A stretch of 64,000 nt of DNA from Halorussus salinus (GCF_004765815.2 NZ_SBIS02000013.1:124001-188000); one strand, 5' to 3'; counted from the first letter of the stretch, positions 10,211 to 43,623 are shown. Program-made: numbers and translations. Notes: a model not told the origin generated them from the sequence alone.

Positions 10211-11461
10211 TCAGTCGCCAGCAATCTGCCGGTGACTCTCGCCGTTCAACGTCCCACCATTCACACGCAGGTCTACTTCTGCGTCTCCGCTCCCCGACGT
10301 GGGCGAGGAACGGAGTCTGTGTGTCCGCTTCCGGGCGTACCGTAGCCCGATGTTCTTCGCACCGTTGTAGTCCGCGTTCACCTCGTACCCGCACTTCTGG
10401 CAACAGAAGCGTTCTCCGTGGCGGTTATCCTCGTGCGTGAACCCACAGTCCGTCCGAGAACAGCGTTGAGACGTGTGGTTCGGCGCGACTTGCTCCACGG
10501 AGACGCCCTGCTCGGGCGCTTTGTAGGAGACGTATTCGTACAGGCGTCGGAACGCCCAAACGTAGTGCCACTTCGCGTGCGGCAACCGCTCGCGTATGTC
10601 GGTCAAGTCCTCGAACACGATAACGTCGCAGTCGTGTTCGACGGCTTCCACGACGAGTTCGTTGGCGACCGTGTGGATGTACTGTTTCCGCCATGCTTCT
10701 TCGCGCTTTCCGAGGCGAAGCAGGGCGTTGTGAGCGGCTTGCGTGTCGTGCTGTTGCATCTCCCCACGTCGCTTCTCGAACTCGCGGCACCAATGGTCGT
10801 AGTCATCTCCTTGCCAAAACGTGCCGGTCGATGAGACAGCGAGACTGTTGACGCCGAGGTCGATACCGAGGACCGTTTGGTCGGGGTGCCCAGTATCTGG
10901 CGAAACCTCTGGGTCGTCGCCGTCAATCCGCCGCGTCGAGATATTGAGGTAGAACTCGTCGGCCGCCGCGTCGTACCGGAGCGTACTCTCACGGAACTCG
11001 TAGTCCTCGGAGAGTACGTACCGCTCGTAGGGTGTCGGGCTATCTGCCGGGAAAACGAACGTGGGTTCGACTCGGCCCTCGATGGTTGCCAGCGACACCT
11101 TGTTGCGGTAGAATGTCGCGCTTCGCGTATCGTAGTCCATCGTTTCGGCGGTGAACGTAGGGCAAGAGACGCGCTGTCCTTTCTTCCAGCGTTCGACACA
11201 CGCTTTGACGGCTTCGGCGGCGCGTTTGATGGCGGCTTGGACGAGTTGTGCCTGTAAGTCCGTCTCCTCTCGAAGTTCGGAGTAGAGCGCGTCACGGACC
11301 TGCCGTTTGTTGGTCTTGCACTCGGTGTATGAGGTGTCGGACCAACAGTAGTCGGCGGTTCGGTTCGCGCAGTACAGGTATTGCTCGGCGGTTTGGTGGA
11401 GTGCGACGCGTTGCTCGTCGGAAACGGCGAGTTTCACAACGGCGGTTCGACGCACCTCCAT
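10211..11461 (-). CDS. tnpB: TnpB (IS200/IS605-type, tnpA-less IS1341-like element)
   Basis: A 416-residue RNA-guided nuclease of the transposon-encoded TnpB family. RuvC residues are present: Asp in VLGIDLGVNSLAVS, Glu in IVFEDLTDIRE and Asp in NADYNGAKNIG. The zinc ribbon has Cys pairs CSRTDC and CQKC. It looks intact. The element right end is at about 10132 (minus-strand end GGGGTAGTTTAC), and a left-end-like motif GTCGATTTCCTC sits at about 11539-11550. No tnpA lies next to it. TnpB with its omegaRNA cuts DNA at the empty donor site to keep the element. Confidence 0.9.
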   Translation of the reverse strand: MEVRRTAVVKLAVSDEQRVALHQTAEQYLYCANRTADYCWSDTSYTECKTNKRQVRDALYSELREETDLQAQLVQAAIKRAAEAVKACVERWKKGQRVSCPTFTAETMDYDTRSATFYRNKVSLATIEGRVEPTFVFPADSPTPYERYVLSEDYEFRESTLRYDAAADEFYLNISTRRIDGDDPEVSPDTGHPDQTVLGIDLGVNSLAVSSTGTFWQGDDYDHWCREFEKRRGEMQQHDTQAAHNALLRLGKREEAWRKQYIHTVANELVVEAVEHDCDVIVFEDLTDIRERLPHAKWHYVWAFRRLYEYVSYKAPEQGVSVEQVAPNHTSQRCSRTDCGFTHEDNRHGERFCCQKCGYEVNADYNGAKNIGLRYARKRTHRLRSSPTSGSGDAEVDLRVNGGTLNGESHRQIAGD

Positions 11462-11887: not shown

Positions 11888-12520
11888 ATGTCCTCTGATC
11901 GCGCTGTTTCTCCGGTTCTTGGGACGACCCTGATGGTGTCTCTCGTGGTCGTGCTGGCGGCAGTTGTCGGCGTCTCGTTTTTTGATGTTGTTGAGGAAGC
12001 CAAAGACACCAACGAAAAGCCGATTCCGGTTAGTGACAATCTTCTTTCGAACGGTGGCTTCGAGGACGGTGCAACGAACAAATGGCAGGACGGCTACGAC
12101 AAACCGCTAGCTGGTCGCTCAGTTATCACACAAACCGATCCGTACTCTGGTTCATATGGACTCGAGATGGACAATACCCCTCCATTCGTCGGACAAGATA
12201 CGACCAAGAATATGGAGGCAGGGAAGATTTATCGAATGTGTGCCGTATCAAAGGTCTCCAATCCTTCCTCAAGTTTTTGGGTTGGCGTTCAGTATTATGA
12301 TTCCGGAGGAAACATCCTTGAGAAAGCTACATACGAAATCAAGTGGACCACATTTGAAGAGAAATGCGTCCTCACAGACTTCACTGAGAATCAAGCAGCT
12401 GCCTCAGCTGAGGTATGGGTCTACTATGACTCGGGGAGCGCCACAGCATACGTCGACGATATCTCCCTAAAGGAAGTCCAGTACCTCGCCGATCCCGACA
12501 AGGACACCGACGACCAGTGA
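11888..12520 (+). CDS. Type IV pilin-like protein with carbohydrate-binding-like domain
   Basis: A 210-residue protein. The N-terminus MSSDRAVSPVLGTTLMVSLVV is a class III (archaeal pilin) signal with hydrophobic helix, expected to be processed by a prepilin peptidase such as PibD. From about residue 48, LLSNGGFEDGATNKWQ opens a beta-sandwich region of about 145 residues that resembles CBM4/9-type carbohydrate-binding modules and ends V-D-D-I-S-L-K. A pilin fused to a sugar-binding-like domain suggests a surface adhesin that binds glycans. TATA-like AT-rich DNA precedes it (about 11832-11855). Confidence 0.7.
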   Translation: MSSDRAVSPVLGTTLMVSLVVVLAAVVGVSFFDVVEEAKDTNEKPIPVSDNLLSNGGFEDGATNKWQDGYDKPLAGRSVITQTDPYSGSYGLEMDNTPPFVGQDTTKNMEAGKIYRMCAVSKVSNPSSSFWVGVQYYDSGGNILEKATYEIKWTTFEEKCVLTDFTENQAAASAEVWVYYDSGSATAYVDDISLKEVQYLADPDKDTDDQ

Positions 12521-12739: not shown

Positions 12740-13924
12740 TTACTTCTCAGTCGAATCCTCGCTGGCAACATCACCCGTTGGAACATGTTCTTTCGCTTTG
12801 TCAATCAACGGCCAGGTATCGAGTTCGGTATCGACGTTGTCCGAGTCAGTTACTGGTTCGGGCCGTTCATAGACGTACTGGATGCCGTCGTGGAAGACGA
12901 AGTAGGCCTTCCGGTCGGCGTCTTCGATCACTGCATTGTCGGTGTCAATGGCGTAGTCAACTAAGTCTTGGAGGCTTGTTGCCTCTGCGCGGGGATTATT
13001 GAGCGCCTCGTCGGGGATGCTGATGGAGGTAATCCACTCGTCAAAGTCGGTTCTATCGTCGTCGTACGCGAGCCACTCCCGCTCAGCATCCGAGAGTGAG
13101 AAGTAATTTCGGCGGTGTGAGAAAACTAGTATGACGAGATAGCCGGTTCCGAGTATCAGCGCCAATGGTCCACCACCCTCACGAACTGGTCCGTACTCTC
13201 GGGGGACTGATACAGCTTCTACATTCCGGCGTTCATTGGTTACGGGGCTGTCCCATGGAATCTGGTAGACGCCCGATGCGAGCTTCAATGGGAGCTGATA
13301 CCGTTCGGTTTGTTCGACTCGCTGGCCGTTTACGCGGCCCTGAACGTGGACAGTGACGCTAACGAACTGCTCGATTTGTCCGGCGGACCCGCCCAAATCG
13401 TTTTGAATTTCGGCACTTCGGTTGCCCACCTGCGGAACATCGATGGTGAACGGGACTTCTACAGTTTCGTCGGGGCCGACGTCCGTGGTGTTCTCGCTTG
13501 CGAGCGGTCGCGAGGACCGCCAATGGGTGACATTCCCGTCGTCCTGCTCGCTCACGCTTCTAATGACGAGCGTCGCGTTAGCGGCCACATTCAGTGATCC
13601 GTCCTCGCTTGCCCCGTACGAGAATCGATGCGCGCCACGCAGTACCGGGCTTATCGCCGTGAAATAGGTCTGTCTGTTCTCAAGCACGGTTCCTTTGGAG
13701 TAGACTTGCGTGTCCCGGACGACGGTCGCGTTGTGGGCGAACGTCCCGGTCGATTCCCACGACGAACGGATTCGCTCTTCAGTTGTGGTTCCCGGCGCGA
13801 TATGTGTCGTGTATGTAGCCCATCCACCGACGAGGACGAGAAGTATGAATAGGGCAGCCACGAGTTCGAATCGCCGGTCAAGGAATGCTCGAATCCGCAG
13901 CGATGTGTCGGTCACAGACAACAA
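12740..13924 (-). CDS. DUF5305-like membrane protein
   Basis: A 394-residue protein with an N-terminal membrane segment (AALFILLVLVGGWATY), an extracellular beta-rich part containing T-F-A-H-N-A-T-V and T-V-L-E-N-R-Q-T-Y-F-T-A-I-S-P-V-L, a second membrane segment near residues 258-272 (LALILGTGYLVILVF) and an acidic cytoplasmic tail. This layout matches the haloarchaeal DUF5305 family, commonly encoded next to signal peptidases and DUF1102 proteins. It follows the signal-peptidase gene by 58 bp on the same strand. I infer a role in assembly or anchoring of secreted fibres. Confidence 0.65.
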   Translation of the reverse strand: MLSVTDTSLRIRAFLDRRFELVAALFILLVLVGGWATYTTHIAPGTTTEERIRSSWESTGTFAHNATVVRDTQVYSKGTVLENRQTYFTAISPVLRGAHRFSYGASEDGSLNVAANATLVIRSVSEQDDGNVTHWRSSRPLASENTTDVGPDETVEVPFTIDVPQVGNRSAEIQNDLGGSAGQIEQFVSVTVHVQGRVNGQRVEQTERYQLPLKLASGVYQIPWDSPVTNERRNVEAVSVPREYGPVREGGGPLALILGTGYLVILVFSHRRNYFSLSDAEREWLAYDDDRTDFDEWITSISIPDEALNNPRAEATSLQDLVDYAIDTDNAVIEDADRKAYFVFHDGIQYVYERPEPVTDSDNVDTELDTWPLIDKAKEHVPTGDVASEDSTEK

Positions 13925-13982
13925 CGGGAAGGGAAGATATATGATTCTATCGCCGACCGTATATGTATATTATCTGCCTATA

Positions 13983-15146
13983 TCACCAATACAACCATCG
14001 GACCCACCGCCGGAGGGCCGTTACCAGTGGAAGTCCATTGCGTTGCTGGTCAAACCGTACCCGACCCCGTCCGACCAGCGTAATTCCAAGGATAGCAACC
14101 GTCCCGCCGAGGAGTCCGTTGATGACCACAACCGGGAGGAGCGGGTGAGCCACGTACAGGATTCGGATGACGCTTACAGGAAGAATCGCCAGATACCGAT
14201 GAACCACCATCGTTCGATAGTATCGGCCCGGTTTGTCCGGAGCACTCAGCGTCACGCGAACCCCCCTCTGGCTGTTGGGCCCGATGGAGACATGATGGTC
14301 CTGTACTGTGAGCCCGCCGCTTCTGGATTCGACGAACGCGACAACCGGCACGTACCCGGCGTTCGAGAGGTTTAGCGTAACGGTCTCATTTGCACCTGCT
14401 GGAATGCCTCCCTCACTAGGACTTGATGGGTCAACGCTGTCAAAGGGGACCGACTGGGGACCACTTGTCAGAAGCATGCTCGCGGCGGCGACTGAAACGA
14501 TAATCACCGCAAGTGCAAGGAGTATTAGTAGTGCACTATATCCGGAGTTTCGGGTTGTGTTGCGGTCGCGGCGTCTAGTAGTACCGTCTAGCCACGCGTC
14601 CAGAATGTAGCCAATCGCTGAGAGCGCGAAGAGAAGGTACGCCAGTCCCCGCATGCCAAGCGAGGACTCCAGTCCGAAAAACTCTGTCACCGTCTCTTGA
14701 ACGGACGAGAGTGCGCTCTGAGTACCGTCGGCGATCATACCGAGATTCGGCACGACGACGACCCGACCGTTTACCTGCAGTGCCACGGCGACAATCTGGG
14801 ACCGACGAACTGGCGGTTCGCCCGCCTGCTGGTCGGTGAAAAGATTGTTATCACCCCGAGTAACGAATCCTTCGGCTGTACGACCAACAACGCGGTGGGT
14901 CGTCAGACTGCCGTCGTGGAGTTTCCGCGCGTGAAACGTCACGACGTCACCGGATTCGATGGGACCACTGAGTTGCGCCGGAATCGCGACGAAGCCGTCG
15001 CCGGGCTCCAGCGTTGGCTGCATGCTACCGGTCTCGACATAGCCTAGGACGATTGGTTGTCCAAGTAATGGGCCAGCGAATAGACCGACGATGAGGACCA
15101 CGACGACGATTTCGACGCTGCGGAGTAGTATCCGTTGGACGCCCAT
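13983..15146 (-). CDS. Signal peptidase I of the archaeal S26B/SipW type
   Basis: A roughly 387-residue protein. The catalytic N-terminal part has a membrane helix, the Ser motif ETGSMQPTLEPGDGFVAI (about residue 43), SGDVVTFHA, TTHRVVG (the His that replaces Lys in ER/archaeal-type enzymes) and FVTRGDNN. The C-terminal 230 residues add about three membrane segments and an extracellular beta domain, making it twice the size of a minimal Sec11. Such long SipW-like peptidases usually process dedicated substrates. ATGs at 15161 and 15146 are both possible; the shorter N-terminus looks more usual. Confidence 0.8.
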   Translation of the reverse strand: MGVQRILLRSVEIVVVVLIVGLFAGPLLGQPIVLGYVETGSMQPTLEPGDGFVAIPAQLSGPIESGDVVTFHARKLHDGSLTTHRVVGRTAEGFVTRGDNNLFTDQQAGEPPVRRSQIVAVALQVNGRVVVVPNLGMIADGTQSALSSVQETVTEFFGLESSLGMRGLAYLLFALSAIGYILDAWLDGTTRRRDRNTTRNSGYSALLILLALAVIIVSVAAASMLLTSGPQSVPFDSVDPSSPSEGGIPAGANETVTLNLSNAGYVPVVAFVESRSGGLTVQDHHVSIGPNSQRGVRVTLSAPDKPGRYYRTMVVHRYLAILPVSVIRILYVAHPLLPVVVINGLLGGTVAILGITLVGRGRVRFDQQRNGLPLVTALRRWVRWLYW

Positions 15147-15203
15147 CGCTTGACATCCCAATACTCCAACACTGAGGTGATAAGACTAGGGGTGGTCGGG
15201 TTG

Positions 15204-15900
15204 GGCATTGTTCAGATTAGCTGATTCCACGCGAAGGCGAGGGTTTGCAACCAGTTTTCAGCGGAGCGATGCGTGGCGTGGCGGAAATGATTAGCGAACT
15301 GGTTGGTGCGGCGTTTTAATTCTTTGAAGACACGTTCGACGCTATTCCGATTTCCATGTGTTTCATGCTGAAATCGGAGGTGTAACTCGAAGAGCGCGGC
15401 TTTGAGCCACGGTGCGCCATCGACGAGAAACATCGCGTCGGCGACGCGATGTTTCTCTTGCAACTCGGTTAGAAACTGCTTGGTCACAACGATAGTTCGT
15501 GTCGGATAGAGCTTCACGTGGGGGAATTCGTTGGTTTCAGGGTCGACGGCGGCGTACAGCCAGTAGCGCTGGTCGTTGAGTTGAATCACGGTTTCACCGA
15601 CCGCAACGTGATTCGGGTTTTTACCATCGGTCGGCTGTAGATCGGCTTTCTGCACCCAATTATGGACGGTCGAGCGACACCGTTCGACACCGAACCTCTC
15701 CAAGACAGAAACAGTATCCGAGAGTGATAATCCGGCCGCATGAAGGTGGATACTGAGCTTTATCAGCGGCTCCGGTGTCGCTTCTCGCTCCACAAACTCT
15801 AACTCGATTCAATCGCTACACTCGTTGAGGCGGTCGAATTCTGGCATGGACACCTAGAATTTCAACCGCCTCGTTCTTCAACGCTTATCTGAACAGTGCC
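15204..15900. mobile_element. IS6-family insertion sequence, 697 bp, with 8-bp target duplication
   Basis: Terminal inverted repeats are GGCATTGTTCAGATTAGC at 15204 and, read from the other end, GGCACTGTTCAGATAAGC at 15900. The element is flanked by a perfect direct repeat TCGGGTTG at 15196-15203 and 15901-15908, the target-site duplication typical of IS6 elements. It sits between the signal-peptidase gene and the DUF1102 gene that transcribes toward it, so it can break or re-promote that operon. Intact duplications and near-identical ends imply a recent insertion. Confidence 0.92.
15212..15847 (-). pseudogene. IS6-family transposase with an in-frame stop at codon 13
   Basis: From ATG at 15847 the frame reads MPEFDRLNECSD, then TGA at 15809-15811, then IELEFVEREATPEPLIKLSIH and the full DDE domain to 15212. 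Haloarchaeal IS6 transposases carry Trp at this position, so TGG to TGA is the simplest change. Catalytic residues seem present: D in YAAVDPETN, D in MFLVDGAPW and E in NSVERVFKELKRR. Internal translation from GTG at 15793 would give a 193-residue protein lacking the N-terminal HTH-like start. Activity is doubtful unless reinitiation occurs. Confidence 0.85.
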
Positions 15901-15996
15901 TCGGGTTGATGATTTCGAATCGGACCCCGTAGAAGATGCAAAATTAACTCTCTTAAAAGAGGTTAGCCCGACTGTGTCTCAAAAGAATGATTCTCG

Positions 15997-16620
15997 CTAC
16001 TGGACAGAGGTCAGACGCTTGGCATTGATTTTGACCCACAGGTCGTCTGCGAGGTCGTCCTCGATGACGCGCATTCCGACGAGGAGTTCGGTAATCTGGG
16101 AAGCGCTACTACCCTTTCCGCGACTATTGATCGTGTCGTCTGAACCGCCGTCAACCGGGTCGAGCGGTTCACGCCCGTCGTTGTCGGTCACGTTCCCGTG
16201 GAAGTCTTTATGACCACTCTTGTAGAAGGCGATACCGGGCGCACTCTCGATGGTGATTTCGTACTGGCCGCCCGTGTTCGCGCTATTCTGGTTCGTCGCT
16301 GATCCGAGCCCTCCTTCGACGCCAATCTCAAGAATGTCGTCAAAGTAGTACGTCGAGTCCGGATTGACACCCGCGCCGTTGGTCTCGATGTCGAATTGGA
16401 TCTTGCCGTCGCTGTCGTAGCTCACGAAGCCGCTGTCGCCGCCCCAGCTATCGTCGTCTTGGGCTTCTTTCAGTTGCAGCATAGCGTTCTCGTCGCTGCT
16501 CGTCGTGACCGTGACGTCACGCTTTCCGGAGGCCGCCTGACTGAATGCGCCCGTACCCATCGCCGCTGCACTCCCTGCGCTGACTGCGCCGAGTCCGATT
16601 AGGAATTTACGTCGTTTCAT
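15997..16620 (-). CDS. DUF1102-like secreted fibre-type protein
   Basis: A 207-residue protein starting MKRRKFLIGLGAVSAGSAAA, a signal peptide with RRKF twin-basic start and A-F-S-Q-A cleavage region. The beta-rich body contains G-V-N-P-D-S-T-Y-Y-F-D-D-I-L-E-I, characteristic of haloarchaeal DUF1102 proteins. These resemble the bacterial TasA/camelysin fibre family that is processed by SipW. It lies upstream of the SipW-like peptidase on the same strand, now separated by the IS6 element. I infer that it is the structural subunit of a surface or matrix fibre. Confidence 0.65.
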   Translation of the reverse strand: MKRRKFLIGLGAVSAGSAAAMGTGAFSQAASGKRDVTVTTSSDENAMLQLKEAQDDDSWGGDSGFVSYDSDGKIQFDIETNGAGVNPDSTYYFDDILEIGVEGGLGSATNQNSANTGGQYEITIESAPGIAFYKSGHKDFHGNVTDNDGREPLDPVDGGSDDTINSRGKGSSASQITELLVGMRVIEDDLADDLWVKINAKRLTSVQ

Positions 16621-16857
16621 GATTGTTGTCACCTTGGTCGCACCCCGAGTCGTCCGGAGTGCTCACTTACAGGTCAGTATCGATACATACTTTGTCTTGA
16701 GCCGCGAGAACAGGTTTCTGGGCCTGTATGGACGTTTTCTCGGGGTGCAATCTAGGAGTTCTAACACAGCCAGAAGTTCGGCAAACAGTCCCTGAAGAAC
16801 CGCAATTGAGCCAGTAACTGGGTGTTACGGGGGCGATCTAATTGAACTGTCTTGTCG

Positions 16858-16867
16858 TATTATATAC
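16858..16867 (+). promoter_or_regulatory. TATA box upstream of the DUF7344-like regulator
   Basis: TATTATATAC about 100 bp before the ATG at 16965 predicts a transcript with a leader of roughly 75 nt, unlike the usual leaderless starts. The gap 16621-16964 holds divergent promoters for the DUF1102 gene and this regulator. Confidence 0.45.
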
Positions 16868-16964
16868 ATAGGGATAGTTGATACAGTCCGAGTAGATAGA
16901 GGGGAGAATTTACAATGGAGATAAAAAACCACTTAAAGAATCCGGTGAGCAAGAAAGCCAATCG

Positions 16965-17498
16965 ATGTCGCGTGACGACATCTTCCACCTCCTCCGGAAT
17001 CGACGACGCCGATATGCACTCCACTATCTCAAGCGAGAAGAAGCTCTACCCATCGCCGACATCGCCGAGCAAGTTGCCGCATGGGAAAACGGCGTGTCCA
17101 TAGAAGCCGTATCCTCGACGCAACGAAAGCACGTGTACAACTCACTCCAGCAGACCCACCTCCCGAAACTCGCCGACAGCGGAATCATCAAATATCAGCC
17201 CCGCAACGGCATGGCCAAAGTTACTGAGCGCGCCGAACGACTTGATGTCTACCTCGAAGTTGTTCCCGATCGTGACATTCCATGGAGTAGCTATTATCTT
17301 GGCCTCGGGGCGGTCTCGCTCGCACTCACGTCCGCGGTCTGGGTTGACGCGATAATCATCTCCCAACTTCCGCCCGTCGCATGGATGACGTTCATTTCCG
17401 TAGCGATCGTCTTTTCGGCCGCAGTCAACGTATATTACCAGCGAGACGACCTCCTCGGCGAACACGAACGACCGCCGGAACTCAGAGGTGACAATTGA
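16965..17498 (+). CDS. Winged-helix regulator with two membrane segments (DUF7344-like)
   Basis: A 177-residue protein. Residues 1-85 show the haloarchaeal winged-helix pattern IFHLLRNRRRRYALHYL, then AWENGVS, RKHVYNSLQQTHLPKLADSGI and a short wing. Residues about 108-155 contain two hydrophobic segments (YLGLGAVSLALTSAVWVDAI and VAWMTFISVAIVFSAAV), so the regulator is probably tethered to the membrane. It is divergent from the DUF1102/SipW genes and overlaps the next gene by 4 bp, which suggests control of the fibre cluster. Confidence 0.65.
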   Translation: MSRDDIFHLLRNRRRRYALHYLKREEALPIADIAEQVAAWENGVSIEAVSSTQRKHVYNSLQQTHLPKLADSGIIKYQPRNGMAKVTERAERLDVYLEVVPDRDIPWSSYYLGLGAVSLALTSAVWVDAIIISQLPPVAWMTFISVAIVFSAAVNVYYQRDDLLGEHERPPELRGDN

Positions 17499-17983
17499 TG
17501 ACTCACCGATGGCTATGGACTGCCATTGCACTGGTAGGTACGGTTCTACTCGTCACAGCAACCGGCGGCTTCAGCGCGGGCCAAATCGACCGACCGGTCT
17601 CAATAACAGTCGCTGAAAACCCCGAAAACGCCATCGTCGGGCTCTCGGGATCAGACAATGTCACGGTAACCTACGGAAGTTCGAACGACACAAAGCAGCC
17701 TACCGTAGAGTTGTTCACCGTCACAAACAACTTCGAGAGTTCGTTTGAATTCTCGATTCAAATCGTCGGCGATACAAATACCCCTCCGGACCATCAGAGT
17801 CTCTCGGCAGAGAAATATTCGTTAGCACCCGGAGAAAGCACGAAAGTGACCGCGAACGTGGTTTGTAGTTCACAAGAAACCGAAACGTGGACAATCTATC
17901 TCGAAGTCAGTAGTTCAGGAGTTGAGGCGGAGATTCAGCATGATATTTCTATAGTTTGTGCCGGGCCCACTTCCACAGGCTAA
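17495..17983 (+). CDS. Small secreted DUF1102/TasA-like protein
   Basis: A 162-residue protein with N-terminal signal (WLWTAIALVGTVLLVTATGGFSAG) and a beta-sandwich-like body with V-E-L-F-T-V-T-N-N-F-E, ending in the pair C-S-S-Q and I-V-C-A-G that could form a disulfide. The A-T-G-G-F-S cleavage region followed by V-S-I-T-V-A resembles DUF1102 proteins and camelysin-like fibre subunits. The 4-bp overlap with the membrane-bound regulator ties it to the fibre cluster. It may be a minor subunit or a ligand of the regulator; inference. Confidence 0.5.
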   Translation: MMTHRWLWTAIALVGTVLLVTATGGFSAGQIDRPVSITVAENPENAIVGLSGSDNVTVTYGSSNDTKQPTVELFTVTNNFESSFEFSIQIVGDTNTPPDHQSLSAEKYSLAPGESTKVTANVVCSSQETETWTIYLEVSSSGVEAEIQHDISIVCAGPTSTG

Positions 17984-18043: not shown

Positions 18044-20095
18044 TTATGAGGTGATATAGGGATTGTTTGGAGATTCCGTCACGCTCGCTGGGCTATACTC
18101 GAGTTTTCCATCTCTATAATGAGCCTCCGTGACTGTAGTTCCGTCTACAAACAGGGTAGCAGACGTTGTTCGGAGATTAGCAAAAGCCTGATCACCAGCG
18201 AGAATGGCTGCCTGACCTAGATTCATATTACCATTCGATTTGAGAGTAATGCTCTTACCGTTGTAATTCTCGTTGTTGACCTCTGCTGCTTGTGCGATTA
18301 ATGCTCCGCCACGTGCATCAATCGTGACCGTACTCGACGCTAATATCTCTCCATTTGAAATATCAACCCCTTCATTTGCAGTGACCTTGATTTCTTGCCC
18401 ATTTACAGCAGTGCTGTCTAACGTCGCTCCTTGAGCGGTCACTGACCCTCCTTGCGCATCAATCGTGATCGTACTCGAAGATTTGAATACAGAATCCTCA
18501 ATATCTATAGCCTCATTTCCTCGGAGCGTGATTTTCTTCCCGTTTGTGCCAGTACTATCTACGGTGATATCCGTACTAGAGAGAGTGCCCTTTTTAGCGT
18601 CTAAGAGAATGTTCCCATTATCCGTCTCAAGATCCGTCTCAACTATTACACCCTCTCCCGCAAGGTCAATATTCCCATAACCATTAACAGAAATTTCACC
18701 AATGCTGTCTGGAATCACTAATTGATCCGAGCCAGCATTATATTGACCATCGCTGACCTCTGCAGTCGGAATTTGTTGGTCAGTTCCACTATCATAATTC
18801 CCGTCTTTATTCACGTCCCGATAGGCAAAGCCGGGGTCAGCAAGCCCAGAGTTTTGGTTCATGCCAGTTACGGTGATATTGATTGCATCGCTAGTGCCAC
18901 CGCTACCGACGTAAACACCGACTGTCCCATTTTTCTTCGCTTTCAGAGTTATTTCAGCTACTCCATTTGAGTCAGTCGCTTGGTCAGATGAGGTGATAGT
19001 TGCCACTGACGAATTTGTGACTCCAAAGTGGACGTCCATCCCCTCCAATTGTGGCGTCGTAAGTGCGCTGAGAGCGAGTTTGTTATCAGAATCATTGTTA
19101 ACATCCCAGTCGCAATTATCTGCGTCGCAATTAGGTTTCGTTCCTGATTGACTGGATGGATTCTGCCAATTGATTTCAAACGCGGTCGAGGAGTTGTCGC
19201 TGGTTTCGGTGCCAGAATGTGATACATTAACGTTTGGTGTCTGACCTGTACCAACAACTGCACATTGTACGTTCCACGTTGTATTGGCTAACTCCAATTG
19301 CACGCGTTGTGGGGCAGTCTGTTGGGCCGCCACAAAATTGGATTCACTTTCGAGGGCTTCTTCCCATTTGCCAGCTGGAAGTGCCGTCGGTATCGTCAAT
19401 GTGACTGGTCCACTGACTTTCGTGTATCCTGTCTCTGCACCATAGAAATCGACCGATATCGGTCCACTCCGTGTTTGTGAGAACTCATCTGAGAGTGGAT
19501 AGAGGTTAATGGTAGACCCTTGGATGAGTGTAGGTTCGTTTTCAAAAATAATAGTCCCATCTGGCGTCTCTCGATAGAACACTGTATTTTCGTATTTAAA
19601 TAACGGAGCTTCAGATCCAGACAGATAATTGTAATTCATTTTGAATTGAATTGATCGTGTTTGCACTGGCGCCTCACGCCCACAAACTTCGGCAATATCG
19701 AGGCTGGTTGAAGAGATCTCGCCACTAGACAACTTCTCTGCTTTGAGTTCGCCATACGGTGGTGGTGGGTTTAAAAAGAAAGCCCGTGTTGGGTACGTTG
19801 TACTGGCCTTGATTGTCGTTGAGCGAGTTGTTCCGGTTTCGGCTGCATTAACAAAATTCGATCGGAGTTGTGTCATATCTTCTTGGACGTCAATGTAGTG
19901 AGCGAATTCACGCTCGGTATTCTCCGACGGCACTACTTGTGCTTGCCAAAGTGACATCAAGATAACTAGGACCGCAAAAATGAGGACAACTCCGACTTGC
20001 TCACTTACTCCACGATTGTCCTCGCGAAATGACACAGGTCCCTGGTTTCTGTTGAGTTGATAAAATCCTATTGGTGTTCGTGTACTGCCAATCAA
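18044..20095 (-). CDS. Pilin-like/adhesin fusion with beta-helix repeats
   Basis: A 683-residue surface protein. Residues 28-52 give DNRGVSEQVGVVLIFAVLVI, the membrane segment of haloarchaeal pilin-like (DUF7289-type) proteins. Then come a beta-rich region to about residue 300, a short acidic D/N/C-rich stretch, an Ig-like region around 355-415, and from about 465 to 640 repeated short strands (LDSTAVNGQEIKV, VNNENYNGKSITL, TITIDAQGGSVTAQ, TVTIDARGGALIAQ) that look like a right-handed beta-helix as in haemagglutinin-type adhesins. Probably anchored in the membrane by its N-terminus and facing outward. Confidence 0.65.
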   Translation of the reverse strand: MIGSTRTPIGFYQLNRNQGPVSFREDNRGVSEQVGVVLIFAVLVILMSLWQAQVVPSENTEREFAHYIDVQEDMTQLRSNFVNAAETGTTRSTTIKASTTYPTRAFFLNPPPPYGELKAEKLSSGEISSTSLDIAEVCGREAPVQTRSIQFKMNYNYLSGSEAPLFKYENTVFYRETPDGTIIFENEPTLIQGSTINLYPLSDEFSQTRSGPISVDFYGAETGYTKVSGPVTLTIPTALPAGKWEEALESESNFVAAQQTAPQRVQLELANTTWNVQCAVVGTGQTPNVNVSHSGTETSDNSSTAFEINWQNPSSQSGTKPNCDADNCDWDVNNDSDNKLALSALTTPQLEGMDVHFGVTNSSVATITSSDQATDSNGVAEITLKAKKNGTVGVYVGSGGTSDAINITVTGMNQNSGLADPGFAYRDVNKDGNYDSGTDQQIPTAEVSDGQYNAGSDQLVIPDSIGEISVNGYGNIDLAGEGVIVETDLETDNGNILLDAKKGTLSSTDITVDSTGTNGKKITLRGNEAIDIEDSVFKSSSTITIDAQGGSVTAQGATLDSTAVNGQEIKVTANEGVDISNGEILASSTVTIDARGGALIAQAAEVNNENYNGKSITLKSNGNMNLGQAAILAGDQAFANLRTTSATLFVDGTTVTEAHYRDGKLEYSPASVTESPNNPYITS

Positions 20096-20742: not shown

Positions 20743-21969
20743 CTAAAGGCCGTGGCATTCAGCATGGACTCCCACTCTAACCGAAGTCGGCACGGGAACG
20801 ACCCCGTTCGTGGTCAACATCCCGCTGTTCAAGCGCACGCCTACGGGTGCGCCTCCCTCGCCCCCAGTTTGGTTGCGAAGGAGTTTCAGACCGATGTTCT
20901 TCGCCGCGTTGTAGTCCGCGTGGTTTTCGTATCCGCACGAGTGGCACGAAAACGTCTCTCGGTGGCGGTTATCCTCATGGGTAAATCCGCACTCCGAACA
21001 CCGTTGGGACGTGTACTGCGGGGTAATCTGTTCGACCAAGATGCCACGTGCTTGGGCTTTGTACTCGACGTAACCGTATAAACGTCGGAACGCCCACTCG
21101 TGGAATTTTCGTGTCCGAGGCATCCGGTCACGAATGTCGGTCAGATTCTCAAACGCGATGTACGAACAGCCGTTCTCGACCGCTTCGGCGACAAGTTCGT
21201 TCGCTACTCGATGGAGATACTGTTCAAACCGCCCCGTTTCGGTGCGTCCAACCGATTGGACGTTTTCATGCGCCCATCGCGTCCCGCATTCCTGCAACGA
21301 TTTTCGGCGTTCGACGTACTCCGTTCGCCAATGGGTCAGTTCGTCGGTTGTCCAGAACGTCCCCGTCGAAGTGACGGCGATGTTCTCAACCCCGAGGTCA
21401 ACACCGAGAACCGTTCCGTTCTCGGGGCGGTCGGGGGCGTCCACATCCGCCTTTGTTCGGATGTGGAGGTAGAATGATCCATTGCGATAATGGAGTGTTG
21501 CGCCCGTCGTCTCGTAGTTGTCGTTCAATAGATATCTCGATTGGGGCGTATCGCGGTGTTCGTCGGGCAACACGTACTCGGCGGTGATGCGCCCATCGAC
21601 AGTTGCCAGCGTCGCGTGGTCGTCGTTGAACGTCGCGTTTCGCGGGTTGTACTCGCAAGACGGCGTCGTGAACGTCGGCAACGAGGCGTACCTGCCTTGC
21701 TTCCATTTGGCGATGGTCGCTTTGAGTGCGTCTACGGCACGGTCGCGGGCCGATTGGACGTGGTTGCTGTGCAAGTCGGTTCGGTCACGCACGTGGCTGT
21801 ACGTCTTGTCGTGGAGAACCGATTTGCGAGTTTCGACCCATTCGCCCTTGGAGGCCACGTCTACGACGTAGTTCGCGGAATCGAGGAACTGTTGTATCGT
21901 CTCACGAAGAAGGTTCGCGTCACTCTCGGTCACATCGAGTTTGACCGGGACAGTGCGCCGGACCTCCAT
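20743..21969 (-). CDS. tnpB: TnpB (tnpA-less IS1341-like element)
   Basis: A 408-residue TnpB starting [11 protein letters not shown]. RuvC residues occur in [14 protein letters not shown] (Asp), [11 protein letters not shown] (Glu) and [11 protein letters not shown] (Asp); the zinc ribbon has CSEC and CHSC. It appears intact. The right-end hairpin CCACGGCC-TAAA-GGCCGTGG (20736-20755) overlaps the stop codon and ends in GTAGCTTAC on the minus strand, like the GTAGTTTAC end of the 10.2-kb element. A left-end-like GTCGATTTCCTCCC lies near 22057. No tnpA. Confidence 0.9.
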
Positions 21970-22214
21970 ATACATCACAAAACGCACTATGTACTTAAAT
22001 ATTAATATAGGGTTGGGGAATCAGCCAACCATCGCCAGTGGAATAGTCAATAGTTGTCGATTTCCTCCCGCATCTAAAGGTACGGGTATCCACCTTGCGT
22101 CTCTATGACACAGCAGGTATGAGTTATCGGTGGACAAGCTCGGACTGCCGTTCTCGAACCGGAATCCCGGCCCGGTTCTCACACAATGTAGGTATACACA
22201 AACAGCAGAAACCA

Positions 22215-36361: not shown

Positions 36362-36847
36362 TTAGAGGTTGACTTCTGATTCACCGATGACAGCTGTCTT
36401 GTCGCTCCCCTGAGCGGTCCAGATGATTTTTACGGCTTCACCGTCATCAATCGTGGAAGAGCTTCCATTATAAATTTCAACACGGTCACCTGCACCGAGT
36501 TCACCGGCCCAATTAGTAGTGGTAGTAGCGTAATTGGAAGCACCGTCACTAGTCCAAGCAGTTTCTCCACCAATTTGGACCTTTAGTCGTGCAGAATCAA
36601 TCGCGTCACCACCATCGTGTGTGATGTTTGCGAACTGTTCAGGTCCAGAATCTCCATCTATATCAATGCCGTTCGCGTAATCAAATGACCAAGTCGTAGT
36701 GGGTTGTGCACTTTGCACACGGTCGCCAAGACCTAGAACAAAAGTTCCGATGACAGCTGCTAGAATTACTGTAATTGCAACCATTAAGATAACACCAATA
36801 ACAGGTGAGACCGCGTCGTCATCGGCGAAGAGTTCGTTGAGTTGCAT
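36362..36847 (-). CDS. Type IV adhesion pilin (PilA-like)
   Basis: A 161-residue pilin starting MQLNELFADDDAVSPVIGVIL. The segment VSPVIGVILMVAITVILAAVIG is the hyper-conserved hydrophobic domain of haloarchaeal adhesion pilins. Its body is a beta sandwich with I-T-H-D-G-G-D-A-I-D and ends TAVIGESEVNL. It starts on the stop of the preceding pilin (TAATG overlap), so the two are translated together. A prepilin peptidase and the PilB/PilC machinery must be encoded elsewhere. Confidence 0.85.
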   Translation of the reverse strand: MQLNELFADDDAVSPVIGVILMVAITVILAAVIGTFVLGLGDRVQSAQPTTTWSFDYANGIDIDGDSGPEQFANITHDGGDAIDSARLKVQIGGETAWTSDGASNYATTTTNWAGELGAGDRVEIYNGSSSTIDDGEAVKIIWTAQGSDKTAVIGESEVNL

Positions 36848-37308
36848 TAGAGAGACACCTCAGATTCACCAATGACAGCCGTTTTGTCGCTGCCACTAGC
36901 AGTCCAAATGACCTTAACAGTCTCTCCATCTTCTATGTCACCATCTTCCTCATCGTGAATTTCGACAGTTGCGCCAGCGGTGATTTTCGATCCTGACCAA
37001 GTGTCGGTGCTCACATTCTTCGTCTCACCGTCAGTCCACATTGTATTTCCACCAATTTGGACAGATAGCTGGGACGATTCAACGCCTTCTCCACCGTCGT
37101 GCGTAATGTTTGTGAAGTCTGCGCTTCCATTGTTACCGTACTCAAAGCTAAATTGAGCATTGGGCTGTGCTTGGCTGACTCGGTCACCGAGTCCGAGGAC
37201 GAATGTGCCGATGACGGCGGCCAGAATCACCGTGATCGCCACCATGAGGATGACGCCGATGACGGGGCTGACTGCGCCGTCGTCTTCGAAGAGTGCTTTG
37301 AGGTTCAT
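36847..37308 (-). CDS. Type IV adhesion pilin (PilA-like)
   Basis: A 153-residue pilin starting MNLKALFEDDGAVSPVIGVIL at 37308; the upstream in-frame ATG at 37362 lies inside the structured leader and is unlikely. Same H-domain as its neighbour and an identical C-terminal TAVIGESEV segment, so the two are tandem duplicates that diverged in the middle. First gene of a two-pilin operon. Confidence 0.87.
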   Translation of the reverse strand: MNLKALFEDDGAVSPVIGVILMVAITVILAAVIGTFVLGLGDRVSQAQPNAQFSFEYGNNGSADFTNITHDGGEGVESSQLSVQIGGNTMWTDGETKNVSTDTWSGSKITAGATVEIHDEEDGDIEDGETVKVIWTASGSDKTAVIGESEVSL

Positions 37309-37487
37309 GTGTTGTGTTTCTCCGTTTTCCAGCACGTTCTCACGTGTGAGAAGTGGCCGCACCCTTTAAGCCGGATGACGAGAAACGGGTACTCGTCGGC
37401 AGGGGAGACCTGTCATGCCGCCCCGTCCGGCACTTCTCTATCGTTGTCACGTGCTTAGTTCGACCGTTCTCACCAATAGTATATAAA
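37309..37487 (-). promoter_or_regulatory. Pilin promoter with about 150-nt structured leader
   Basis: A TATA box (TTTATATA on the minus strand, 37480-37487) lies about 175 bp from the pilin ATG, predicting a leader near 150 nt. The leader contains arms GAGAAGTG (37348-37355) and CACTTCTC (37431-37438), bracketed by two CACGTG palindromes at 37341-37346 and 37448-37453, so it can close into one long stem. Leaderless transcripts are the rule in haloarchaea, which makes this unusual. Confidence 0.5.
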
Positions 37488-39005: not shown

Positions 39006-40222
39006 TTAGTCGGACGGGACAAATCCCCGGTTCGGCGTCACCGTTCCTGACTTCAGGGCAAGTTGACTGTCGCCCGTCCGCCGCGAGGACTGTAGCCCGC
39101 GACGGACAAACCGCCACCCAACATTCTTCGCACCCACATAATCTGCATTCTGAGTCGCGCCACACGACTCACACTCGAACTCAGCCTGCCGCACTCGGTT
39201 CCTCTCGCTCGTATGCCCACACTCGGGACACCGCCGACTCGTATTCTTCGGGTCTACAAACTCGACGCTAATTCCTTCGGCTTCAGCCTTGTACTCCACG
39301 ACGTCAACAAGTTGTCGGTGCGCCCACTGGTGGAACATTTTCACTGGGGGCGAACGCTCTCGGATGTGATTCAGATCCTCAAACGCGATATACTCGCAGT
39401 CGTGTGTCTGTGCTTCTTCGAGAATTCGGTTGGTGACTTGGTGGAGTTGGTCACGGAGATACCGTGACTCCCTCCCGCTCATCTGCTGAATTGTCCGATG
39501 GGCGGATCGTGTACCGGTCTGCTGGAGGTTGCCGCGAATCCGCTCGAACTCACGATGTCGGTGCCTGAGTTCCCTGCCGGATGCGAAGTACGCTGTACTG
39601 GTGGTGGCGATGTTGACGATGCCAAGGTCAACGCCGAGAACGGTCCTGTCCTCGTCGTCATCCTGTGTTTCGACCTGTTTCTCAGGCTCGTCTTTGCGGA
39701 ACCCGAGGTGGAGGTAATACTCACCATCACGCTTTGACAGCGTGGATTCTGTTACTTCCCACTTGTCATCGGTGAGGTATTCGTGTTGATACCCGTCTTC
39801 TTCACCGGGAAGTTCAGGTCACACCGAATCCAACCATCGACGGTGGAGAGCGAAACAGACCCGTCATCAGACAGCGTCATCGTCCGTGTATCGTATTTCA
39901 TCGTGTTACTGGTGAACTCCGGTCGGGACGTTTTGTAGTGTTCGTCGAGGTCTTTGATTGCTTCGACACCATCGAGCGCGACTGCGGCTTGGTGGCTGGC
40001 GAGAATCGCGTGTTGACTTCCGAGACGTGTTTCATCCAACACCGGGTCGTAGGCGAGGTCTTGGAGGTAGGTTTTCCGCGTTTCACCGTGTTCCCATCCA
40101 ATACGACTGCTGATGTTGCAAGCAGTTTTCCACTCGCTGATGGTAGTATCAAGCAAGTCCTGTTGCTCGGTGGTGAGGATGGGGCGGGTGATTGCGGTAC
40201 GTCTCAGGTAGTCGTCTGCCAC
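39006..40222 (-). pseudogene. tnpB: TnpB with a single frameshift
   Basis: From ATG 40222 the frame reads MADDYLRRTAITRPILTTEQ to C-D-L-N-F-P at about 39812. The +/-1 frame then carries GEEDGYQHEYLTDDKWEVTE and the rest to 39006, with RuvC residues in VLGVDLGIVNIAT, IAFEDLNHIRE and NADYVGAKNVG and zinc pairs CPEC and CESC. All catalytic parts are intact apart from that shift. The right-end hairpin GCCCCGCGC/GCGCGGGGC is at about 38950-38973 and the left-end hairpin at about 40289-40312. Confidence 0.85.
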
Positions 40223-41046: not shown

Positions 41047-42342
41047 ATGGGCTTGGAACCGTTCTCTCCTGACTCGACGATTTTCCGTGATGAATCTGTC
41101 TTACGGGACGGCTATCAGCCCGACCGCCTCATCGAGCGCGACCAAGAACTCGATCAGTACCAGAGCGCGCTCAAACCCGTCATCAACGGGGCACCGCCGA
41201 AAAACCTGTTTCTGTACGGGCAAACTGGTGTTGGGAAGACACTCTCCTCGCGAATGGTCGTCGAGCGACTCACGGAAGATCAGGAGCGAATCGACGGTGT
41301 CGATATTCACGTCGTCGAACTCAACTGCAAATCGTTAAATAGTAGCTACCAGGTCGCTGCGAACCTTATCAATCAGTTCCGTCCGCCGGATGAACAGATT
41401 AAGCCGACCGGCTACCCGAGTGGCATGATTTATAATATGCTGTTCGAGGAATTGGAAGCGCTCGATGCAACGCACTGCTTGGTGGTGCTCGACGAAATAG
41501 ACGCAATTGGGAACGACGACGATATTCTGTATAAACTCCCGCGAGCGAACGATAACGGAAATGTTGAGGAGACGTACGTTGGTGTTATCGGTATCTCGAA
41601 TGATTTCACGTTCCGCGATAACCTCTCTGCGCGGGTGAAAGATTCGCTAGCTGATGAGGAGATTCACTTCCCGCCGTACGATGCGAATGAGCTCGGGAAC
41701 ATTTTGAAGCAGCGGGCTGGCGAGGCGTTCCACGGCACAACTGCTGAGCAACGTGATGATGGGAGTTACGAGTTACAGTCTGACATTTTGGAGGGGGATG
41801 TGATTCCATTGTGTGCGGCGTTCGCTGCACAAGATTCGGGGAGTGCTCGGCAGGCGCTGAAGCGGTTGTATAAAGCAGGAGATCTGGCTCGGGACCAGGA
41901 GTCGGAGGTGATTACAGAAGCGCACGTTAGACAGGCTGATGAAATTGTGGAGCGCGATAAGGTTCGTGAGGAGCTACGGCGATTGCCGACGCAGAGCAAG
42001 CTGACGTTGTATGCGTTGTTGTTATTGGAACGGGACGGGAAGACCCCATCGAAGCGTAACCGGATTTATAAACGGTATGTGATGGCTGCGAAGCGGATTG
42101 ATGCAGATGTGCGGACAGACAGAACGATTCACGATCGGTTGTCGCAGTTAACGTTGAAAGGGTTCCTCGATGTGGACGAACAGAACAAGGGCCCGAATGG
42201 AGGGTCGTATTACGAATACGAATTCTCAATTCGACCGGATCTTGCGCAGGAGGCGCTTGAGGAGGAAGAGCGGTTAGATGAGTTGTTCGATACTGGTGGG
42301 GCATCGACGACGCTCGACTCGGTGTCAGTTACCCACGACTGA
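41047..42342 (+). CDS. orc1/cdc6: Orc1/Cdc6 replication initiator
   Basis: A 431-residue initiator starting MGLEPFSPDSTIFRDESVLR. Walker A is YGQTGVGKTLSSR, Walker B VVLDEIDAIG, sensor region GISNDFTFRDNL with arginine A-R-V-K-D-S-L. The C-terminal winged helix (RLPTQSKLTLYALLLLERDG, TIHDRLSQLTLKGFLDVDEQ) binds ORBs. The ATG at 41017 is less likely as it falls next to the last ORB. The adjacent upstream ORBs make it the dedicated initiator of this origin. Its last three codons and stop lie in the right-end hairpin of the following TnpB element. Confidence 0.92.
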   Translation: MGLEPFSPDSTIFRDESVLRDGYQPDRLIERDQELDQYQSALKPVINGAPPKNLFLYGQTGVGKTLSSRMVVERLTEDQERIDGVDIHVVELNCKSLNSSYQVAANLINQFRPPDEQIKPTGYPSGMIYNMLFEELEALDATHCLVVLDEIDAIGNDDDILYKLPRANDNGNVEETYVGVIGISNDFTFRDNLSARVKDSLADEEIHFPPYDANELGNILKQRAGEAFHGTTAEQRDDGSYELQSDILEGDVIPLCAAFAAQDSGSARQALKRLYKAGDLARDQESEVITEAHVRQADEIVERDKVREELRRLPTQSKLTLYALLLLERDGKTPSKRNRIYKRYVMAAKRIDADVRTDRTIHDRLSQLTLKGFLDVDEQNKGPNGGSYYEYEFSIRPDLAQEALEEEERLDELFDTGGASTTLDSVSVTHD

Positions 42343-43623
42343 AGTCGTGGGCTTGTCAGTGGACTCCCCTTCTACCGTCGCATGGACGGAGGCGTTGTAA
42401 TCGCCATTCAGGTTCAGCGTCCCTGACGGTAGCGCACACTGACAGGGTGCGCCTCCACCCGAAGACGTCTGCCCCGAGTGGAGCGTCTTGAGAAGTTTGC
42501 GAGCGATGTTCTTGCTCGCGTGGTAATCAGCGTTCAGTTCGTACTCACACTTCTGGCACACGAACTGGTGCTTCGACCGCCGATTGGTTTCGTGGGTAAA
42601 CCCACACGAAGAACACCGCTGACTGGTGTACGCCGGACTCACCTGCTCGATCGAGATGTCGTATATCTCAGCTTTGTACTCGACGTACTGGTAGAGGCGT
42701 CGGAACGCCCACGCGTGGAACCGCTTCGCACCAGCCATCCGATTGCGAATATCCGTCAGATTCTCGAACGCGATATGCGTACAGCCGTGGTCGAGGGCTT
42801 CTTCGAGAATCCGGTTCGAGGCACGGTGGAGTTCGTCCTGCATCCAACGGTGTTCGCGGTCTTTCATTGACTGAATCGACAAGTGTGCCGACCGCGTTCC
42901 AGTCTGTTGCATCGACCCGCGAGTCTTCTCGAACTCTCGGCGTCGATGATTCACCTCGTCTGCGTTCCCGATGAACGCGCCTGTGGAAGTCACGGCGAGC
43001 GAACCGTCCACGTTCAAGTCAACACCAAGGACTGTTCTGTGCTTGGCGGCAGAAGGAGTCGTGGACTGGCCTTGTTCGTCTGTGGTTCGGCGCATCCGAG
43101 CGTGGAGGTAGAACGACTCTGAGGCACGGTCGTACTGTAACGTGGACATTCGGAACTCGTAGTCCTCGTTTAGCAGGTACTCACCAATTGGCGTCCCCTC
43201 TGAGTCGTCGGGAATCACGTAGTCGCACTCGACGCGACCGTTTACGGTTGAGAGGGAAACGTGGTCGCGGTGGAACGTCGCACTTCGCTTATCATAGACG
43301 ACGCTCCACGCATCGAAGTGCGGCTGACTCGTCTTACCGCCTTTTTTGAGCCGGGCAACACCGCTTTTGGTGGCCTCGATAGCACGCCGAACCCCTTTCT
43401 GAACGAGGTTTGCAGTCAATTCCGTCTCGTTTCGGAGTTATTCGTAAAGGGCGTTCTCGGCGTTCTGTTTCGAGGTCACGCAGTAGTCGTTCGGGTGTCT
43501 CCACGCCCACTCTGCGGTGGTGTTCGCACAGTGGAGGAACTGGTCTTTGGTCTGATGGAGGTCGTCGCACCGCTCTGTGGGTACGTCGAGTTTGACTTTG
43601 ACGGTGCGAATCACGTCCTCCAT
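42325..43623 (-). pseudogene. tnpB: TnpB with one in-frame stop codon
   Basis: From ATG 43623 (MEDVIRTVKVKLDVPTERC) the frame runs to A-L-Y-E, then TAA at 43438-43440, then LRNETELTANLVQKGVRR and the rest of TnpB to 42325. In the 10.2-kb paralogue this position reads A-L-Y-S-E-L-R, so GAA to TAA explains it. RuvC and zinc-ribbon residues are otherwise intact ([44 protein letters not shown]). The right-end hairpin CCCACGAC-TGAA-GTCGTGGG is at 42332-42351; a left-end hairpin CCCACGGC-TTCA-GCCGTGGG is near 43726-43745. Confidence 0.85.

Follow-up and report, generated by a model that had tools for sequence, protein, structure and literature searches.

We examine a cluster of five genes at positions 12740-17983 of a 64,000-nucleotide stretch of Halorussus salinus DNA (GCF_004765815.2, NZ_SBIS02000013.1:124001-188000; 'the window' hereafter) and conclude that it probably encodes a surface fibre of the twin-arginine translocation (Tat)-fimbria type, assembled and regulated by the steps set out in the last section. 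It is a real, conserved fibre cluster and a variant of a known system, and what it adds is a candidate operator and a proposed starter subunit. The five genes that an initial annotation of the window had placed side by side are all present there, in intact reading frames. The minus strand carries the genes for a TafE-like subunit, an S26B signal peptidase and a DUF5305 protein, and the divergent plus strand those for a DUF7344 regulator and a TafC-like protein, with the stop codon of the former overlapping the start of the latter as TGATG. The cluster comprises:

12740-13924, minus strand: DUF5305 membrane protein (PF17231, E = 2.2e-54, over the full length)
13983-15161, minus strand: long SipW-type S26B signal peptidase with an extra extracellular domain and additional transmembrane segments (TIGR02228 and S26 matches)
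15204-15900, minus strand: IS6-family insertion element (NF033587, E = 8.5e-53; inverted ends and direct repeats)
15997-16620, minus strand: TafE-like fibre subunit with a Tat signal (NF052522 TafE, E = 6e-13, below cut-off)
16759-16775, no strand: operator-like palindrome TTCTAACACAGCCAGAA (matrix scan, 13.2 bits)
16780-16796, no strand: second, weaker operator-like site GGCAAACAGTCCCTGAA (matrix scan, 9.6 bits)
16965-17498, plus strand: DUF7344 winged-helix regulator with two C-terminal transmembrane segments (PF24035, E = 5.6e-30, above cut-off)
17495-17983 (probable ATG start at 17498), plus strand: TafC-like secreted protein (NF052521 TafC, E = 6e-11, below cut-off)

A survey of co-occurrence, as the initial annotation had proposed, revealed a conserved neighbourhood across haloarchaea. 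Among 99 related genomes, the subunit and DUF5305 occur together in 44 of the 46 that carry the subunit, while DUF5305 is found in 6 of the 53 without it (Fisher p = 5e-19, uncorrected for relatedness). At the level of loci, 52 of 56 long DUF5305 loci have both SipW and a subunit and 44 also DUF7344, and the neighbourhood is kept in 40 + 80 loci. In most haloarchaeal loci, DUF5305, SipW and between one and three subunit genes come in this order, with DUF7344 and TafC running divergently from them. The subunit, DUF5305 and TafC-like genes are each single copy in the window genome (4.75 Mb). Within the genus, the subunit and DUF5305 are found together in only 3 of 18 genomes, and in none of 10 other members of the family; the window DUF5305 is closer to that of Halomicroarcula rubra (47%) than to those of congeners (42% and 40%). 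This patchiness and this affinity suggest that the cluster was acquired horizontally.

The subunit family and its relation to Tat-fimbriae

The window subunit likely starts at the ATG at 16620, with a GTG at 16632 as a possible alternative, and carries the Tat motif RRKFLIG followed by a GTGA/FSQ cleavage region. Across 39 subunits of the family, both arginines of the RR pair and the alanine of the GxGA motif are invariant, and the phenylalanine is nearly so. A profile of these subunits matches the solved 'Pilin' 9p0a_C of the Protein Data Bank with E = 6.3e-35, the match spanning positions 10-185 of its 200 and so nearly the entire profile, whereas the window protein alone matches over residues 5-108 only (E = 4e-5). 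The name 'DUF1102-like', given to this protein in the initial annotation, does not hold for it: it has no Pfam match, DUF1102 (PF06510) included, and membership was rejected, while 5 of its 39 relatives match DUF1102 weakly (E ≤ 0.01, best 2e-5). Neither 15997-16632 nor 17495-17983 matches Pilin_N, the domain of archaeal type IV pili.

Structure prediction of the two secreted proteins was also suggested at the outset. The AlphaFold (AF2) model of the subunit reaches a predicted local distance difference test (pLDDT) score of 58, and when the Foldseek candidates were realigned with VIA the top row was the AbpA bundling pilin of Pyrobaculum calidifontis (7ueg_A; Z 4.9, root-mean-square deviation 5.2, 121 residues), a protein to which no sequence relation is shown; the Sulfolobus thread 7pnb_A came eighth (Z 3.7). 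With a model this weak, these fold matches are suggestive only, also as regards a TasA-like jellyroll or donor-strand fold. Foldseek itself gave no match to the subunit model better than E 0.37, and 9P0A is absent among the rows shown, probably owing to the same weakness. The TafC-like protein, for its part, was predicted to be an Ig-like (immunoglobulin-like) domain.

Haloarchaeal Tat-fimbriae, with TafA, TafC, TafE and TafF, were reportedly described by Galeva et al. in 2025 (iScience 28:111793). Our own view of this tafi system comes only from one citing paper (PMC12687288) and from the NCBIfam models TafA, TafC, TafE and TafF, with equivalog cut-offs of 190 bits for TafA, 155 for TafE and 410 for TafC. 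The TafA cut-off is exceeded in 18 of 293 genomes, and most of the loci read among these also contain SipW, DUF5305 and DUF7344; one tafi locus checked in full passes all four models. With such Haloarcula-type loci the window shares the partner set of SipW, DUF5305 and DUF7344, TafE-like and TafC-like proteins and a Tat signal with its RR motif on the subunit. It differs from them in having no detected TafA or TafF, TafE and TafC matches far under the cut-offs, a TafC-like protein that is half as long and lacks an RR motif, another gene order and an IS6 insertion. Given the shared partner set and Tat signal, but with neither TafA nor TafF found and the scores under the cut-offs, we class the cluster as a divergent variant of Tat-fimbriae and not as strict tafi. 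The idea of a dedicated archaeal fibre or matrix system with which the window was first annotated thus stands as regards a fibre cluster that has a SipW-like peptidase of its own and a divergent membrane-bound regulator, given the conserved neighbourhood, the solved homologous pilin and the weak bundling-pilus match; it is no new kind of system, since Tat-fimbriae were already described and the same partner genes occur in their loci.

The secreted proteins might instead form a surface coat or matrix with no discrete fibres, in which case the part of SipW would be confined to processing and DUF5305 would act as a sensor or in a sheath. A fibre is not visible from sequence, and Ig-like sandwiches are common among non-fibre surface proteins. 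Yet a solved pilin is matched by the family profile, the subunit model comes closest in fold to bundling pili, and PMC12687288 describes Tat-fimbriae of the same families as thin filamentous appendages, so that we consider a coat or matrix improbable.

Large secreted proteins with a PGF-pre-PGF domain, possibly fibre-associated adhesins, lie between the subunit genes and sipW at two other loci (L048:9324-10763 and L038:10028-11563); none was seen in the window.

Peptidase, TafC-like protein and the comparison with TasA

The signal peptidase at 13983-15161 matches TIGR02228 at 51-54 bits and has the Ser-His-Asp-type motifs GSMQPT, THRVV and GDNN, with the catalytic S46, H89 and D104 invariant across 13 relatives. 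The long form noted in the initial annotation, which has an extracellular C-terminal domain and, as seen here, extra transmembrane segments, is kept in 13 aligned relatives. Homology of this extracellular domain to TafC was considered and rejected, as the match is not significant. The DUF5305 protein consists of an N-terminal transmembrane segment, an extracellular domain, a second transmembrane segment at about residues 250-268 and a cytoplasmic C-terminus, and is probably an anchor or assembly partner of the fibre.

The second small secreted protein foreseen at 17495-17983 is present as well, and is TafC-like. Its AF2 model (pLDDT 78) predicts a complete Ig-like sandwich over residues 41-159, with a Z of 11 to complement Ig domains and further matches to PapD-like chaperones, preceded by a low-confidence N-terminal segment that is predicted to be flexible. 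Over its N-terminal half the protein shares homology with the same part of the subunits (hhalign against the TafE family, 99%, E = 2.6e-18). Bacillus TapA likewise has a complete Ig fold and gives an N-terminal strand to start TasA fibres (PMC10151520; PMC9674648). From this shared design, a complete fold behind an N-terminus homologous to that of the subunits, we infer by analogy that the TafC-like protein would be a starter, or cap, of the fibre, as TapA is for TasA.

The likeness to the TasA/TapA/SipW system of Bacillus subtilis extends to the set of a subunit, a dedicated SipW-like peptidase encoded next to it and a small accessory protein of Ig fold whose N-terminal strand is homologous, and to an aromatic residue after the cleavage site. 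Unlike TasA, a Sec (general secretory pathway) substrate, the window subunit is predicted to be exported by Tat; it matches neither the camelysin domain (PF12389) nor the SipW-type signal peptide (TIGR04088), its profile has no significant match to camelysins, and DUF5305 and DUF7344 are extra in the window cluster. Outside Haloarchaea, DUF5305 adjoins SipW-type peptidases at loci L178-L185, in other Halobacteriota, and at L145; such a pair stands on a Methanofastidiosia contig. In most of the L178-L185 loci read, DUF5305 also adjoins proteins over the cut-off for both PF12389 and TIGR04088, that is, camelysin subunits with SipW-type Sec signal peptides and no Tat motif. Because DUF5305 adjoins SipW and camelysins there, the haloarchaeal clusters are tied to TasA-type fibres by gene neighbourhood, though the subunit profiles do not align. 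The link to TasA drawn in the initial annotation is therefore real in the gene neighbourhoods of other archaea and is not shown by sequence profile. Some DUF5305 loci outside Haloarchaea (L178, L182, L183 and L185) have two SipW-like peptidases.

A candidate operator and the DUF7344 regulator

The regulator was correctly anticipated as a membrane-tethered winged-helix protein, with a DUF7344 domain and two transmembrane segments. In 55 dereplicated divergent intergenic regions, that of the window included, we counted 94 copies of the half-site CYTGAA where 16 were expected and none of 200 shuffles exceeded 26, and 10 exact 17-bp palindromes TTCARG-N5-CYTGAA where the 200 shuffles had none. Neighbouring copies of the motif tend to be a multiple of 11 bp apart, exactly so in 32 of 56 close pairs. 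A matrix trained on the 55 regions was then tested on sequence outside them, where it gave 47 sites of at least 15 bits. Of these, 37 fall in the 350 bp preceding a fibre-subunit or DUF7344 gene, stretches that account for 4% of the sequence, although some of the 37 are other stretches of the same promoters left out by the parser. Halorubrum-type loci (L079, L084, L086, L042, L113 and others) have three or four palindromes 32-33 bp apart between the subunit and DUF7344 genes, some 130-225 bp before the subunit start, a putative helically phased operator array. In the window, the sites at 16759 and 16780 lie 21 bp apart; both are weak, and a consensus search that allowed 2 mismatches listed neither. 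We propose the palindrome, which precedes fibre and regulator genes throughout haloarchaea, as a new and previously unnoticed candidate control site.

DUF7344 is a likely but unproven candidate for the protein that binds it. The nearest relatives of the window DUF7344 are those of taf loci and not its 20 best paralogs in the same genome, with modest support; taf-associated DUF7344 proteins could not be shown to form one clade. The window genome has 40 DUF7344-family matches, an unusually large expansion of one regulator family. This expansion, together with sites in four long loci that have no DUF7344 gene nearby, would fit an operator belonging to a general haloarchaeal regulator unrelated to DUF7344, which would then have another target. 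We regard this as rather unlikely, since outside the training regions the sites concentrate before fibre and DUF7344 genes (of those reaching 12 bits, one precedes SipW and none DUF5305) and the window DUF7344 stands nearest to its counterparts in taf loci, if without strong support.

The insertion element and the proposed fibre

An IS6 element that the initial annotation did not mention sits between the subunit gene and sipW. It is complete: the transposase lies at 15212-15793, the inverted ends are 18 nucleotides long, and an 8-bp target sequence is exactly duplicated (TCGGGTTG at 15196-15203 and 15901-15908). The element is intergenic and reads in the same direction as the operon. The insertion may silence or drive the expression of sipW and DUF5305; despite it, the cluster may be active in this strain. 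Loss of a second subunit gene by deletion through the element is unsupported, as the two copies of the target are identical and taking the element away leaves only some 130 bp. Mobile elements are plentiful in this region, with TnpB-like transposon reading frames around the cluster at 10211-11461, 20743-21987, 39006-39482 and 42325-43419.

The cluster could be of the functional class that we propose and still, in this strain, be a decaying or silenced copy, with a single subunit gene left and sipW and DUF5305 parted by the element from the subunit promoter. The complete element and its intact duplication within the operon fit such a history, as do the degenerate window operator and the two subunit genes of the congeners Halorussus aquaticus and H. 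salinisoli, where the window has one. But no reading frame is broken, many other loci also have a single subunit gene, and read-through or a promoter of the intergenic, co-directional element could maintain expression; we hold decay or silencing to be the less probable state.

Several observations weigh against the assignment to a Tat-fimbria-type fibre. The window subunit scores 48.9 bits against TafE, far below 155, which amounts to clear homology but not equivalog level, and the TafC-like protein scores 42.1 bits against TafC, below 410 and over profile positions 1-147 of 373. TafA was not found in the genome, the best score being 25 bits at the signal peptide only; nor was there a TafF match, in a search that matched no control genome either. 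The subunit model is weak and its Z of 4.9 to 7ueg_A is under the safe level, and homology of the subunit to camelysins was rejected on profile comparison, the alignment not being significant. The window palindrome has 3 mismatches to the consensus and, being degenerate, was not listed by a 2-mismatch consensus search, while loci without DUF7344 are not significantly poorer in operator sites (p = 0.14), so that an association of the sites with a nearby DUF7344 gene was set aside. Finally, sipW and DUF5305 may go unexpressed because of the IS6 insertion.

We nevertheless favour a Tat-fimbria-type fibre, which would form as follows. The TafE-like subunit would be exported through the Tat pathway with its globular part already folded. 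The SipW-like peptidase of the cluster would next cleave the subunit behind the conserved GxGA, and the N-terminal strand so released would fill out the beta-sandwich of the following subunit (donor-strand complementation). Because its Ig fold is already complete and its N-terminal strand is homologous, the TafC-like protein would start or cap the fibre, and DUF5305 would tether the base of the fibre to the membrane. Both transcription units would be governed, through the palindromic operator, by the membrane-bound DUF7344 protein encoded divergently. More tentatively, and with considerable doubt, haloarchaeal fibre clusters at large may be one regulon, switched by membrane-bound DUF7344 proteins that read a helically phased palindromic array, with the fibres being TasA-type donor-strand fibres whose subunits have shifted from Sec to Tat and so exit folded; SipW cleavage and a TafC starter resembling TapA would then set off assembly outside the cell.

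Beyond these genes, the cluster has as a neighbour (11888-12520, plus strand) a protein that joins a type IV pilin N-terminal domain to the carbohydrate-binding domain CBM_4_9, and a 683-residue protein with a weak type IV pilin-like N-terminus and a Big_1 domain is convergent with the TafC-like gene (18044-20095, minus strand). Two small proteins with type IV pilin-like N-termini lie in tandem further on (36362-37362, minus strand; VSPVIGVILMVAITVILA).

This analysis sets a cluster of which little had been described next to a fibre system that was itself described only very recently. Gene neighbourhood links the Tat-fimbria-type system to TasA-type fibres across archaea and bacteria. A role is also proposed for the third secreted protein, and the DNA site common to the loci makes haloarchaeal fibre regulation directly testable. 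If it is true that Tat exports folded subunits, this would be a donor-strand fibre in which assembly is separated from folding.

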